This document shows, one piece after another, positions 4,602-21,083 of a stretch of DNA of 21,646 nucleotides. How positions within the stretch are numbered: the first letter of the stretch is position 1; every line of letters starts with the position of its first letter. The stretch spans positions 1 to 21,646 of the IMG/VR virus record IMGVR_UViG_3300025789_000177; one strand, given 5' to 3'. The DNA comes from a virus. The notes beneath the pieces were generated by a model. It was not told the DNA's origin. It was given only the letters and a program-made list of their open reading frames with translations, and searched no databases. The position numbers and the translations under genes are program-made.

Positions 4602-4651
4602 AGTTTACTGGTGCCGATATATACACCGCAACCGATTTTTGTATATACACC
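4602..4651 (-). promoter_or_regulatory. Tandem GGTGTATATAC copies: candidate promoter of the packaging operon
   Basis: The gap between the helicase loader and the small basic gene holds two copies in the same orientation. One is exact (GTATATACACC on plus, 4641-4651) and one has a mismatch (ATATATACACC, 4617-4627), 24 bases apart. Between them is AAAAATCGGTTG (minus strand), shared with the portal-operon gap. TTGCGG (4626-4631) with TAAACT (4602-4607) at 18 bases could be -35 and -10 boxes. The motif recurrence is seen directly; the promoter role is inferred. Confidence 0.55.
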
Positions 4652-4656
4652 CATGG

Positions 4657-5349
4657 TCAGGCAATTTTCACGATCTGGGAGAACTCTGCCAACCTGCGGA
4701 CGATGGCATCTCCTCTGTCAGCAGAGAACATGGCAAGGAGTCCACGGGCATCCGAATTGCTCGTCCAGATGATCGGGAGTCGGCGCGATGTCCTGTACTC
4801 CAGAAGGTCGTAGAGTTCTGATTCTGCACGGTCGGTCATGCGGTTCTTGCCGAGGTCGTCGAGCAGGAGGACGCAGGCACTCCTGCAGAGTTGCAGGATG
4901 TTCTGGGCAATGCTCTTGGTGGCGGGGTTGTCCGCGAACTGGTTGGCAGAGTTGAGTGCCAAATCGGTTGCCGTGATGTAATAGGTGTTCCGCTTCTCCT
5001 CATGCATCCGGTGGAGGAGTGCTATCGTGGCACGGGTTTTCCCTTTGCCAGACCTTCCGATGATCCCGATTCCCTTGGGTTGGTACTGCCAAAATTCGGT
5101 GACTGCGGTTATTTCCTTTGGAATCCTCGAAATGTCGGTGTCGTGGTAGATCGGAGGGATCATGAGGTTCCAGCGAGTTTTAGATGCCTCCCTGCGCTTT
5201 CTAGAGGCATTCTCGTGATCCTCTTGCGATGCCTTTTCGCAGCATGGGTCGCAATATCGAGGCTCAAAGATTTGCCTGCCATGGAAAATGACGGGTTCGT
5301 AGGTGAAGTTGATCCCGCAGGTCATGCAGGTGGATGTTTGAAGAGTCAT
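4657..5349 (-). CDS. DnaC-like helicase loader (AAA+ ATPase) with N-terminal zinc motif
   Basis: This 230-aa protein would load the replicative helicase at the phage origin. Its AAA+ core shows Walker A GRSGKGKT (98-105), Walker B LLLDD (161-165), a TSN sensor-1 (196-198) and a C-terminal RR pair (218-219) fitting an arginine finger. The N-terminus has C-x2-C (8, 11) and C-x2-C (33, 36), a zinc ribbon that may contact helicase or DNA. The ATG at 5349 lies just after the stop of the DUF1376 gene. An upstream ATG at 5370 would add seven residues and overlap that gene. Adjacency to the DUF1376 gene resembles the lambda O-P pair. The downstream gap marks the end of the early operon. Confidence 0.9.
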   Translation of the reverse strand: MTLQTSTCMTCGINFTYEPVIFHGRQIFEPRYCDPCCEKASQEDHENASRKRREASKTRWNLMIPPIYHDTDISRIPKEITAVTEFWQYQPKGIGIIGRSGKGKTRATIALLHRMHEEKRNTYYITATDLALNSANQFADNPATKSIAQNILQLCRSACVLLLDDLGKNRMTDRAESELYDLLEYRTSRRLPIIWTSNSDARGLLAMFSADRGDAIVRRLAEFSQIVKIA

Positions 5350-5353
5350 GGGA

Positions 5354-5980
5354 TTAGAATGCGGATACAAAAGGTGATTGGGTTGTTGCGGTTTGCTGGA
5401 TGGGAGTGTCGATCCGGTTCAGCCAGTTGACGACGAACCTGCGGGTCTTCTGCTTTCCCCTGCGGGTGGATAACCACGCATCCATCTTGCGGGACTCTGC
5501 CTCGATGTTGATGTGGGGATAGTTTCCCTTGAGGGATGCCATCCACTCATCGTCCGAGAGTTTTGGAGTCGGTTGCGCTTTTTGCGCGACTGTCTTCTTA
5601 TATGTATTAAGTAATGAGTCTTTCGTATTAAGTAGCAAGCGTTCGCTATGCGAACGGTCAGCGTTCGGTGTGCGTTCGCTATGCGTTCGCTTTGATAGTG
5701 CCGACTGCCTTGCCTTCTCGGATCGTTCGTATGCTTTCTCAAGTTCCTTATTCACAACCGGATGGATGAAACCCTCGTCGGTTGCGGTGAAGAACTCGTT
5801 CAGCACGATGAGAACCGTCTCCTCGGACATGCGTACCTTCCTTGCGAGTCCATCGAGTGAGATGGGACGCTCGGTGTCGTAGGCAATGTCGAGGAGTCTG
5901 CGGTAGCATAGATCCTCGTCATTGGTCAGGTGGACGGTAGCGTGTGCGTATGCCTTGATGTCGAACTGGTAGTAGTGCAT
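5354..5980 (-). CDS. DUF1376 replication protein (candidate initiator)
   Basis: The 208-aa product begins HYYQFDIKAYAHATVHLTNDE, then DLCYRRLLDIAYDTERPI, the classic DUF1376 (YdaU-type) signature found in phage replication modules. Residues 1-80 form a winged-helix-like domain. Residues about 95-128 are a hydrophilic linker, and a second basic region (RKMDAWLSTRRGKQKTRRFVVNWLNR) follows. The linker is encoded by repeated GCGTTCGC elements and an AT-rich stretch that resemble an origin. The start is the ATG sharing its A with the upstream stop (TGATG, 5980). An earlier in-frame ATG would add seven residues and overlap more. The DnaC-like gene directly follows. An initiator role is inferred from context. 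Confidence 0.85.
   Translation of the reverse strand: MHYYQFDIKAYAHATVHLTNDEDLCYRRLLDIAYDTERPISLDGLARKVRMSEETVLIVLNEFFTATDEGFIHPVVNKELEKAYERSEKARQSALSKRTHSERTPNADRSHSERLLLNTKDSLLNTYKKTVAQKAQPTPKLSDDEWMASLKGNYPHINIEAESRKMDAWLSTRRGKQKTRRFVVNWLNRIDTPIQQTATTQSPFVSAF
5596..5690. repeat. Iteron-like repeats plus AT-rich block: candidate replication origin
   Basis: Inside the DUF1376 gene lie three exact GCGTTCGC copies (5639-5646, 5672-5679, 5683-5690), a near copy GCGTTCGG (5661-5668) and an inverted GCGAACG (5650-5656). The first and inverted copies form the hairpin CGTTCGC-TAT-GCGAACG (5640-5656). Directly beside them is an AT-rich stretch with two GTATTAAGTA repeats (5604-5613 and 5625-5634, period 21). 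Iterons next to an AT-rich segment within the initiator gene is the plan of the lambda origin. Origin function is inference. Confidence 0.5.
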
Positions 5981-6510: not shown

Positions 6511-6521
6511 GTATATACACC
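6511..6521 (-). promoter_or_regulatory. GGTGTATATAC copy between early genes
   Basis: An exact 11-mer occupies most of the 17-base gap between the winged-helix gene and the 66-aa gene. The preceding GA creates GAGGTG, a good Shine-Dalgarno at eight bases from the ATG. Here the element may therefore serve translation as well as, or instead of, transcription. Confidence 0.45.
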
Positions 6522-9057: not shown

Positions 9058-9219
9058 TTACTTGCACCTGCGGTGTCTATACACCTTGGGGCAAAAGACT
9101 GTGCCTGCGGGAAAGAGACGGGTAAGGAATTGATTCCAGATAAGGTTGGGACGGTCACCGTGGTACTCGACGGAGGGAATCGAGTAACGGTTGCGCTTGA
9201 TTAGCTCGGCTTTATCCAT
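9058..9219 (-). CDS. Small basic hypothetical protein following the excisionase-like gene
   Basis: This 53-aa product (MDKAELIKRNRYSIPSVEYHG..., ending KVYRHRRCK) overlaps the stop of the HTH gene (ATGGATAA), which indicates coupling. It is basic, with aromatic-rich NLIWNQFLTRLFPAGTVF in the middle. No family is recognised. Its last codons contain one of the GGTGTnnnnACACC palindromes. Confidence 0.6.
   Translation of the reverse strand: MDKAELIKRNRYSIPSVEYHGDRPNLIWNQFLTRLFPAGTVFCPKVYRHRRCK
9072..9085 (-). promoter_or_regulatory. Palindromic site GGTGTnnnnACACC upstream of the microprotein/ERF operon
   Basis: The plus strand reads GGTGTCTATACACC, one base from the ideal palindrome GGTGTATATACACC. 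It lies at the end of the 53-aa gene, 35 bases before the microprotein start, so it could control the recombination operon. The operator role is inferred from recurrence. Confidence 0.45.
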
Positions 9220-9660: not shown

Positions 9661-9687
9661 GCAGTATATACACCCGTCAAGCGTGGT
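9661..9687 (-). promoter_or_regulatory. GGTGTATATAC copy upstream of the regulator genes
   Basis: An exact 11-mer (9664-9674) is immediately preceded on the minus strand by TTGACG, which resembles a -35 box. It lies in the 92-base gap between the integrase stop and the ribbon-helix-helix start. The rest of this gap is AT-rich and holds no gene. Confidence 0.5.
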
Positions 9688-17696: not shown

Positions 17697-18647
17697 TTAA
17701 AGTTCTGCGGACGCGGTTATCGGATTATTAAACCCATTTGCATTTGTGGAATTGGGGCGATTTGCAGTTAATCCTGTAAAATTTGAAATTGATGCCAATA
17801 AACCTCCCAAAGATGTTCCAAGATAAGATCCAGAATTGGCTGAACTTTGTGTGTAATTAGCAGATCCATCTGTAATAGTAAGAGTAGCTGTTATTGAAAT
17901 TGTTGGAACAGTCCTCATGGTTACTGGAAATGTAAGATTTAACGCTGCGACCGTTGTGAGTGGGCTATAACCAGATCCCGATAAAGAATTACAATAATAC
18001 CTCTGGCAAAGCGCAAGCTCGGTTCCGTATGGTCTGTAATCGAATGCCGTTGCCGTGGAGCCTTTTTCGAGTTGAATTTGTGAAAGGGTCAGAGTTCCAG
18101 AGGTCAGAGCACCAGTAGAAAAATAAATCTGAATCCCATTTATTGCCGTTGATGGCAATGTAAAGGTATAACTAAAGCGTGTTGCACTTGCATTGATCGT
18201 TGCAGTTCCAACCAAAACAGCGGAATTAGTTGAAACATAATTATCAACAGCAGTAGGAGTTGAATAATAGATTGGAAGACTTGTTAATGTTGAGCTACTA
18301 GCGGTGAATGAGAATGTTACAGTCTGGCTTGCCAAATCGCCTATGTTGTTTGATTCAATTCTTTGGATAAGCGTTAATCCTGTATTTCCAGAAGCACCTG
18401 TAATTTGCCACGAATAAGAACCTACGCTTCCAACTCTTTGAGAAGTTACAGCTACATTTGAACCAAGAAGCCACCTGTCTAAGGTGTATCCCAACGAAAC
18501 ACTCTGACTCGCACCAGCGTTCCTCTGGTCTATTGCAAACCCACCATTGATGATGCGGTTTTTGAAACCGAAGCCAGAGGGCGCAGTCGTCTGCACCGAG
18601 CTATCGGGAAAGGTGATGCCTGTGGAGGCGAGGGCGAGGTTTGGCAT
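17697..18647 (-). CDS. Tail fibre protein (third in the array)
   Basis: This 316-aa product has a short N-terminal anchor (GITFPDSSVQTTAPSGFGFK) like the other two array fibres. NRIINGGFAIDQRNAG and YTLDRWLLG follow, the start of a widespread phage fibre domain with carbohydrate-binding-like folds. Later, QIQLEKGSTATAFDYRPYGT and ELALCQRYY are also typical of that family. The C-terminal Thr/Ser-rich region is probably the host-contact tip. Most of the gene is AT-rich relative to its neighbours, which suggests exchange. Confidence 0.8.
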   Translation of the reverse strand: MPNLALASTGITFPDSSVQTTAPSGFGFKNRIINGGFAIDQRNAGASQSVSLGYTLDRWLLGSNVAVTSQRVGSVGSYSWQITGASGNTGLTLIQRIESNNIGDLASQTVTFSFTASSSTLTSLPIYYSTPTAVDNYVSTNSAVLVGTATINASATRFSYTFTLPSTAINGIQIYFSTGALTSGTLTLSQIQLEKGSTATAFDYRPYGTELALCQRYYCNSLSGSGYSPLTTVAALNLTFPVTMRTVPTISITATLTITDGSANYTQSSANSGSYLGTSLGGLLASISNFTGLTANRPNSTNANGFNNPITASAEL

Positions 18648-18650
18648 GGG

Positions 18651-18821
18651 TTATGAAAGTTGTTCGGGGGTCGGCTTTGGATGCACGGGATGATTCCACG
18701 ACTTGATGTAGTCGCCTTTGCCATCCGAATCGTTCTGAAGGACAATGGTTCCAGTAAGCGGAATGAAATCAGCCAAAGTTAGGTCGGGGTAAAGTTTGAT
18801 GATCTTGTCGTAGAGTTTCAT
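18651..18821 (-). CDS. XkdW-like small fibre-partner protein, copy B
   Basis: This 56-aa product (LYDKIIKLYPDLTLADFIPL, then TGTIVLQNDSDGKGDYIKSW...) matches the style of XkdW-type proteins encoded after phage tail fibres (Y-P-x-L-T, I-x-L-Q-x-D-S-D-G, Y-I-x-x-W, P-T-x-E-Q-L). It is 46/56 identical by eye to the copy at 19393-19563, and the second half is nearly identical at the DNA level. It follows the 188-aa fibre gene by one base. Confidence 0.7.
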   Translation of the reverse strand: MKLYDKIIKLYPDLTLADFIPLTGTIVLQNDSDGKGDYIKSWNHPVHPKPTPEQLS

Positions 18822-18822
18822 G

Positions 18823-19389
18823 TTATGCGGGTCGAATTAATGCTCCGGTAAACCAATAATATGGATATCCGCCACCAGATGAAGAGCCAATCGTGCCGTT
18901 TGAAATGTATGTGTAAACTTCAACATAATCTGTTGTGCCATTCATATAAATCATTGAAGAACCGGATATTGTCCCTGCGTTTGCAGTCTGCCGTCCAAGT
19001 TCGCAATAAACTGCGCCGTTTTTATATAGTGCCACAAGAAAAATGCCTGTTGTGGTTGTAATAAGACCCGCGCTTATTTGGTAATAACCAGCAACTGTTG
19101 GTGTAAATCGTGACGAGGCAAAATTGTTGTTAGTATCAAATAGTTTTGTGTCAAATGTTATTTTTACATTTACTGAATAAGACGGCGTTATGCTTGTTGA
19201 ATTGTACGCACTGAAAGCTGGCCCTTTGCCGCTGGTCTGGGTCGTTCCGTCTGGGAAGGTGATTGAACCACCGCTAGGAACAACGAGATTGCTCGTCACG
19301 CCACTAGTCGTCACGGTTGCGGCAGTCGTGCCGTTGACCTTGATGTAGCCTTGCGCGAGGGATGGATCAGCTGAAAGTGAGATGCTCAT
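18823..19389 (-). CDS. Tail fibre protein with C1q-like C-terminal domain (second in the array)
   Basis: This 188-aa product has an N-terminal segment ending GSITFPDGTTQTSGKGPAFS, shared with the next fibre. A C1q/TNF-like pattern follows (FDTNNNFASSRFTPTVAGYY, then QISAGL...VALYKNGA, ending WFTGALIRPA). C1q-like trimers often form receptor-binding tips on phage fibres. The start at 19389 follows the preceding small gene by three bases. The C-terminal half is AT-rich and differs from its paralogue, as expected of a host-range domain. Confidence 0.75.
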   Translation of the reverse strand: MSISLSADPSLAQGYIKVNGTTAATVTTSGVTSNLVVPSGGSITFPDGTTQTSGKGPAFSAYNSTSITPSYSVNVKITFDTKLFDTNNNFASSRFTPTVAGYYQISAGLITTTTGIFLVALYKNGAVYCELGRQTANAGTISGSSMIYMNGTTDYVEVYTYISNGTIGSSSGGGYPYYWFTGALIRPA

Positions 19390-19392
19390 GGG

Positions 19393-19563
19393 TTAAGAAA
19401 GTTGTTCGGGGGTCGGTTTGGGATGCACGGCATGATTCCACGACTTGATGTAGTCGCCTTTGCCATCCGAATCGTTTTGAAGGACGATGGTGCCACCGAA
19501 CGGGCTGAAGTCCTTTTCGGTCAGGTCGGGGTAGATTGAGAGGATTTTGTCGTAGAGTGTCAT
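19393..19563 (-). CDS. XkdW-like small fibre-partner protein, copy A
   Basis: This 56-aa product (LYDKILSIYPDLTEKDFSPF, then GGTIVLQNDSDGKGDYIKSW...) is a paralogue of the 18651-18821 gene. It follows the 170-aa fibre gene by one base. The two copies differ mainly in the first 23 residues, which suggests that the variable N-terminal part matches each fibre while the rest is constant. Confidence 0.7.
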   Translation of the reverse strand: MTLYDKILSIYPDLTEKDFSPFGGTIVLQNDSDGKGDYIKSWNHAVHPKPTPEQLS

Positions 19564-19564
19564 G

Positions 19565-20077
19565 TTATGCGGGCCTTGCTAGGAAGCCTTGGAAATATGT
19601 ATTGTATATTCCAGTTCCAGTAGTTTGTGATGTTCCTGTGTACCCATAAATCTCCACGAAATCAGAAGAACCGTTGCAATAAACCAAAGCATTCACGGTG
19701 TTGTTTTGTAAATATCCAGCATTAGTTGATTCTATGCCTCTTTTGTATTCACTTCCATTTTTGAATATTGTAATAAATGAATTTACTCCTGATATATTAT
19801 AGCAATTAGCGTTTATCTGATAATATCCAGCTATCGTAGGAGTGAACCTATAATTAGTTGTTGAATCATAATTTGAATTGGTATCATACTCTTTCGCTTG
19901 AAATTGTATTTTTGTGTATGTGGTGCTGGAAATCGTTTGAGCAGAAGATTGATACGCACTAAACGCTGGCCCTTTTCCGCTGGTCTGAGTAGTTCCGTCA
20001 GCAAAAGTAATTCCAGATGCACCAACGCTATCCGAAGGTGTCGTGATGCCAGTTGTTCCGTTGATCGTGACGCTCAT
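19565..20077 (-). CDS. Tail fibre protein with C1q-like C-terminal domain (first in the array)
   Basis: This 170-aa product shares ITFADGTTQTSGKGPAFSAY with the second array fibre. It then carries a C1q-like domain (YDSTTNYRFTPTIAGYYQIN, ending YFQGFLARPA). The first half is homologous in layout to its paralogue, and the middle is AT-rich and diverged. It starts at 20077, three bases after the preceding gene's stop. It is likely a host-recognition fibre of short length, perhaps attached to the longer anchor protein. Confidence 0.75.
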   Translation of the reverse strand: MSVTINGTTGITTPSDSVGASGITFADGTTQTSGKGPAFSAYQSSAQTISSTTYTKIQFQAKEYDTNSNYDSTTNYRFTPTIAGYYQINANCYNISGVNSFITIFKNGSEYKRGIESTNAGYLQNNTVNALVYCNGSSDFVEIYGYTGTSQTTGTGIYNTYFQGFLARPA

Positions 20078-21044: not shown

Positions 21045-21083
21045 GTTCTAGCAGTCCGGTATATACACCTCAACCTGTTTTCT
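21045..21083 (-). promoter_or_regulatory. Candidate promoter of the tail operon (GGTGTATATAC copy)
   Basis: An exact 11-mer (21059-21069) is preceded on the minus strand by AAAACAGGTTGAGG. TTGAGG (21068-21073) and TAGAAC (21045-21050) are 17 bases apart and could be -35 and -10 boxes. The upstream block resembles that before the terminase and portal operons. Confidence 0.5.

Follow-up and report, generated by a model that had tools for sequence, protein, structure and literature searches.

A candidate replication origin inside a phage DUF1376 gene, and related repeat arrays across the DUF1376 family

Could a phage gene of the DUF1376 family carry the site at which its own product starts replication? 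DUF1376 proteins are common in phages and prophages and have no assigned function; of 5.39 million papers searched, 5 mention the family, none of them in a title or abstract. The question was raised by a metagenomic virus fragment from IMG/VR, 21,646 bases long. We refer to this whole stretch of DNA as the window; a 39-kb contig contains all of it at 100% identity. Window genes include those for integrase-like, Erf recombinase, exonuclease, DUF1064 nuclease-like, DUF1376, DnaC-like helicase loader and terminase proteins. The DUF1376 gene (5354..5980, minus strand, ATG at 5980-5978) encodes a candidate replication initiator of 208 amino acids. The protein belongs to the family by its score against the PF07120 profile (64.9 bits, curated cut-off 30.1, E=9e-18) and also matches PHROG primosomal protein families. 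The original prediction placed a lambda-like origin in this gene, with a helicase loader gene following. Such a gene is indeed present: a DnaC/IstB-like reading frame (4657..5370, minus strand) overlaps the end of the DUF1376 gene and matches PF01695 and the DnaC-like helicase loaders of phrog_50 (E=1.5e-25). The neighbouring gene in named relatives encodes IstB/DnaC, DnaB or a primase-helicase, and PHROGs labels relatives primosomal or replication initiation proteins.

GC skew gave no information about the replication start, since it was nearly monotonic, with most genes in one direction, both in the window and in five near-complete contigs of 34-39 kb. The window contains other repeated DNA. 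The sequence GTATATACACC occurs 8 times at no more than 1 mismatch (0.16 expected), mostly between genes (802-812, 4617-4627, 4641-4651, 6511-6521, 9072-9085, 9664-9674 and 21059-21069). The copy at 6511-6521 is directly upstream of a minus-strand ATG (..AGAGGTGTATATACA-ATG); this phage may use the sequence as a common leader, ribosome-binding or promoter-like. Separately, 18645-18831 and 19387-19573 each align a second time elsewhere in the 39-kb sister contig, with about 84.5% identity; two neighbouring window genes share this diverged repeated segment of about 187 bases.

The iteron array consists of five SCGWWCGC units (5639..5690, minus strand). In gene-strand order the units lie at 5683-5690, 5672-5679, 5661-5668, 5650-5657 and 5639-5646, the fourth being inverted (CCGTTCGC). 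The gene strand reads GCGAACGC ata GCGAACGC aca CCGAACGC tga CCGTTCGC ata GCGAACGC. Three exact copies, one near copy and one inverted copy had been predicted. All are there: on the plus strand, GCGTTCGC is at 5639-5646, 5672-5679 and 5683-5690, GCGTTCGG is the near copy at 5661-5668 and GCGAACGG, at 5650-5657, is inverted and itself a near copy. The five form one array at an exact 11-bp pitch, a regularity beyond that prediction. Allowing two mismatches, CGAWCGC-n4-CGAWCGC occurs 6 times in the window, always at the array, against 0.56 expected; none of 100 shuffles reached this count. A series of five CGWWCG units at 11-nt steps appeared in 0 of 20,000 synonymous-codon shuffles of the gene, and a series of four in 3. 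Simple lag-11 matching in this gene alone is weak (756 of 20,000 shuffles reach the observed value). The repeat claim is carried by the exact unit series and by the family-wide test described below, rather than by single-gene lag-11 matching. The array occurs once per contig in each of five 34-39 kb contigs, the 39-kb window contig included.

A candidate unwinding element adjoins the iterons. This AT-rich array (5599..5633, minus strand, 23% GC) has five 7-nt units, ACTTAAT ACGAAAG ACTCATT ACTTAAT ACATATA, and its GC content is among the lowest 0.4% of 35-bp windows in the record. Two AT-rich repeats with a 21-base period had been proposed here. The repeats exist (GTATTAAGTA at 5604-5613 and 5625-5634) but the period is actually 7 nt, 21 being three times 7. 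The lag-7 matches were equalled in 25 of 5,000 synonymous shuffles. Judged from the sequence, evidence for the heptads is moderate in the window gene alone and strong once relatives are counted.

How the repeats relate to the protein was considered with an AlphaFold2 model. Residues 1-100 (5681..5980, minus strand) form a confident N-terminal domain (pLDDT 87-98), with a winged helix and a long C-terminal helix. A disordered linker follows (residues 102-141) and then a C-terminal helical domain (residues 143-191; 5408..5554, minus strand), a candidate contact for the loader or helicase. The arrays lie exactly in the part encoding the modelled linker, as had been proposed. The same C-terminal block is found behind other N-termini in loci L010-L014; in two of these loci the N-terminal part matches PHROG families of replication initiation or DnaD-like proteins. 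Foldseek returned weak matches for the window model, mainly to winged-helix proteins. A profile search of solved structures gave no match.

Loss of the linker repeats as DNA in close relatives would have spoken against an origin; the outcome favoured one. In loci L004-L008 (62-93% protein identity) all five iterons keep their position and pitch, with a core that alternates between AAC and ATC. The heptads are near-perfect in L004-L006 (e.g. ACTCATT ACTCAAG ACTCACT ACTCAAT ACTCAAG in L004). Where relatives share an amino acid, they use the same codon in 83% of cases for iterons and 85% for heptads, compared with 58% for the N-terminal domain and 71% for the C-terminal domain. For distant pairs alone the shares are 65%, 84%, 43% and 69%; the C-terminal domain is also well conserved in these pairs, so the iteron contrast is with the N-terminal domain. 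Relatives with other linkers do carry other iterons, a check that had been proposed. L009 has the C-terminal domain of the window family together with a different N-terminal domain, tail and iteron class. Set against L008, this shows an apparent module character, in which one C-terminal domain can be joined to modules that differ in tail and iterons.

We searched 2.9 million viral contigs by iteron units, using DNA only. The four-unit scan found 13 loci, 13 of 13 in the linker of a DUF1376 gene, and their C-terminal parts differ widely. The two-unit scan (GCGAACGCWNNGCGAACGC) found at least 124 loci. Among the matches listed, 114 of 124 are in DUF1376 or Lin1244_N genes. An open frame with a DUF1376-like match accounts for 89 of those listed, a few with the site in the domain-coding part instead of the linker, and 25 of the other 35 listed belong to Lin1244_N genes, where the site has the same position, following 'SAxxRW'. 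PHROGs labels these iteron-bearing Lin1244_N genes as replication initiation protein. By profile, Lin1244_N (PF14297) is a relative of DUF1376 (hhalign probability 98.4, E=9e-15; the alignment is partly of iteron-coded peptide, and the domain aligns too), with the same iteron at the same place. A three-unit scan of genome contigs gave 7 matches, of which the one at L031 falls in an initiator gene (Lin1244_N). The remaining six look like repetitive DNA of chromosomes that are mostly GC-rich, and in genome contigs the motif by itself therefore has no diagnostic value. Scanning viral sequences with YdaU brought up E. coli prophages that were nearly identical.

Individual loci vary on this plan. 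In L025 (about 1147-1275) the iterons flank an AT-rich stretch (four units, AT-rich, two units), an arrangement also known from SaPI-type origins. Lin1244_N genes (e.g. L036, L050 and L070) follow their iterons with purine-rich repeats (AAAGGAAAGTAAAG), not AACCAAT-like ones, so the putative unwinding element differs while the iteron stays the same. In L095 (749-1420, minus strand) a GCGAACGC pair is followed by GAAGTGAAGAGAAG-type repeats, and the N-terminal part has no visible DUF1376 or Lin1244_N match; the gene is possibly a third initiator type that uses the GCGAACGC iteron.

A protein-first sample avoids selection on the repeat. It comprised 80 viral loci, loci from 300 genomes (the GTDB family of a Paraburkholderia genome) and a few others, thinned to 59 dissimilar DUF1376 linkers, and synonymous shuffles were the null. 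Self-matching of linker DNA stood out at lag 11 (z=+13.2), lag 22 (z=+9.5) and lag 7 (z=+9.5). Lags 7, 14, 21 and 28 mark the distal half of the 59 linkers. No lag-11 peak was found, by the same shuffles, in the first 40 residues of the DUF1376 domain in the 59-gene sample. The proposal of a lambda-like origin in the window gene passed the tests run, but it had underestimated the generality of the feature, which is family-wide.

DUF1376 genes have several unrelated iteron sequences, including GCGAACGC, AACCCA, CGTTCAAC and ATCAGAT. The 11-bp pitch recurs in the GCGAACGC (z +9.3), AACCCA (+7.2), CGTTCAAC (+8.5) and G- or C-run (+4.5) classes. A common pitch with varied sequence is as expected for different binding specificities within one architecture. 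A minority of linkers lack a clear class motif and as a group have a weak lag-11 signal (z +3.1). The class follows the tail motif, which ends the domain just before the repeats. The SAxARW tail goes with GCGAACGC iterons in 22 of 24 cases, NGKxGGRP with AACCCA or CGAATCGA in 16 of 17, and AGKASxxRR with GTTCAA in 7 of 7, E. coli Rac YdaU among them. Mutual information between tail motif and iteron class is 1.72 bits (shuffle maximum 0.99), for classes defined after inspection of the same data. Hence, we then examined 17 cultured phages. Judged by eye, all fit the pairing, Vibrio phage 1.003 only weakly. A tree built from the DUF1376 domain with the tail left out requires 19 or more changes of tail class, with no crossing between classes A, B and F. 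Three switches are on well-supported branches, all concordant with iteron class; with only three, a formal test of co-change has no power. Tail codons adjoin the iterons in the DNA, so co-transfer is an alternative to recognition for their association. An extra GCGAACGC-type unit was seen in the domain-coding part of 19 of 37 protein-first SAxARW genes (e.g. L016, L077 and L137), and an extra unit in 2 of 29 and 2 of 31 genes of two other classes; SAxARW genes possibly have a second iteron cluster upstream.

The closest precedent for such an arrangement is the lambda origin in gene O (NC_001416) and the related Stx-phage origins. Lambda O has two DNA targets, the iterons and AT-rich DNA in single-stranded form (PMC7466680), and the origin of Stx phage P27 was tested by synonymous recoding (PMC7466680). 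Features of a lambda-type origin were found here: an iteron array inside a putative initiator gene, an AT-rich region directly beside it as a sequence feature, and an adjoining helicase loader or helicase gene. In lambda too, iterons and then an AT-rich tract lie mid-gene, between the parts encoding the DNA-binding N-terminal domain and the C-terminal domain, and the helicase loader gene is next. Some phages with DUF1376 have the gene order CI, CII, DUF1376, helicase, which resembles cI-cII-O-P. Conversely, the initiators are unrelated in sequence. Lambda O matches PF04492 (Phage_rep_O) and DUF1376 proteins match PF07120 only; by sequence, we rejected membership of DUF1376 in the lambda O family (hhalign probability 0.1, E=0.75). 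Each lambda iteron spans 18 bp, with a spacing of 20-24 bp, whereas those of the window are 8 bp at 11. The same lag analysis of lambda O peaks at lags 23-24, so the pitch differs. DUF1376 also differs in an AT-rich part made of 7-nt repeats and in having many iteron classes in one family. The lambda precedent exists for the mode; in the searchable literature we found no description of the initiator family, the pitch, the heptads or the class-specific iterons.

Other systems offer partial parallels. The ydaU gene of the E. coli Rac prophage is a DUF1376 gene, followed by a gene for an ATP-binding protein (ydaV). Its linker has its own TGTTCAAACA-type repeats, spaced 33, 33 and 12, and the iteron class differs from that of the window. 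An active origin, oriJ, has been reported for the Rac prophage as a whole (PMC3945230); a literature search on DUF1376 function or the position of oriJ found nothing usable. Origins of phage-inducible chromosomal islands (SaPI-type) have iterons and an AT-rich melting region beside the initiator gene (PMC6092414), a combination that resembles the one in DUF1376 genes. However, SaPI-type origins lie 3' of rep, and their AT-rich region is flanked by iteron sets left and right, whereas DUF1376 arrays are part of the coding sequence and have most of their iterons on a single side. Among plasmids with DUF1376, considered as cases where it might be the sole initiator, one also has RepM and two, considered over part of their sequence, look like phage-plasmids.

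Could the repeats have a role other than that of an origin? A low-complexity linker peptide might happen to be encoded by repeated DNA; such linkers are disordered in the model and peptides such as NANAMRTHSERNAN recur. However, 11 and 7 are not multiples of 3, so successive units fall in different frames, which a protein repeat cannot produce. Furthermore, copies of GCGAACGC fall in each of the three frames (103, 46 and 79 cases), and the signal is above that of peptide-preserving synonymous shuffles, on which the repeats vanish. For these reasons we rejected a protein-level repeat, an explanation that is almost certainly wrong. An RNA-level element of the transcript is hardly more credible. 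Although the array is transcribed within the gene, it has inverted units (unit 4 in the window, the first unit of L234 and L236) and palindromes (GCGATCGC), which suit recognition of double-stranded DNA. Rfam gave no credible match, the one hit being below the gathering score and outside the arrays. This candidate was rejected on both counts.

Two further explanations operate at the DNA level. Partition, or recombination between phage modules, would fit the exchange of different tails and iterons between C-terminal domains (L008 versus L009). Yet the repeats differ between classes and so cannot be shared recombination sites, and the one-turn pitch and AT-rich heptads beside a helicase loader are left unexplained; we consider such a process very unlikely. 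The array might instead be an operator by which the DUF1376 protein represses its own gene and the downstream loader, without origin function. A winged-helix protein with an array in its own gene also fits autoregulation, and most of the weak structure matches are transcription regulators with a winged helix. Against this, the array is about 290 bp inside the gene, AT- or CA-rich repeats always follow it in the same orientation, and the adjoining genes encode helicases or their loaders. An operator of this kind is therefore unlikely, and operator and origin roles could occur together.

Taken together, the iterons, with a pitch of one helical turn, and the AT-rich heptads are, at the level of sequence, frame-independent, conserved as DNA and family-wide, with class-specific iterons. 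The segment 5599-5690 is likely to be a phage replication origin inside its own initiator gene, working in a lambda-like mode, and genes of the DUF1376 family probably encode initiators of replication and contain the site where it begins. The DUF1376 winged-helix domain and basic tail helix would bind the iterons side by side on one helix face. The complex would melt the adjacent heptads, and the C-terminal domain would bring the DnaC-like loader encoded next door, which would load the host DnaB helicase. By analogy, we infer the same order of events as for lambda ori, O and P.

A broader reading, to which we give an even chance, is that DUF1376 and Lin1244_N make up a large superfamily of self-templated replicators. 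Each would have a winged helix and a short basic tail specifying the iteron class, and the neighbouring codons would hold iterons at one-turn pitch and 7-nt unwinding repeats; tail, iterons and heptads would be an exchangeable cassette, joined to different C-terminal recruiting domains. If so, the sequence of a protein could reveal its target site. If the origin reading is true, one rule would give a function to DUF1376 and Lin1244_N, and origins could be located, with a precision of about 100 bp, in the genomes of many phages. The iteron classes would also be a natural set for studying the joint change of initiators and origins.
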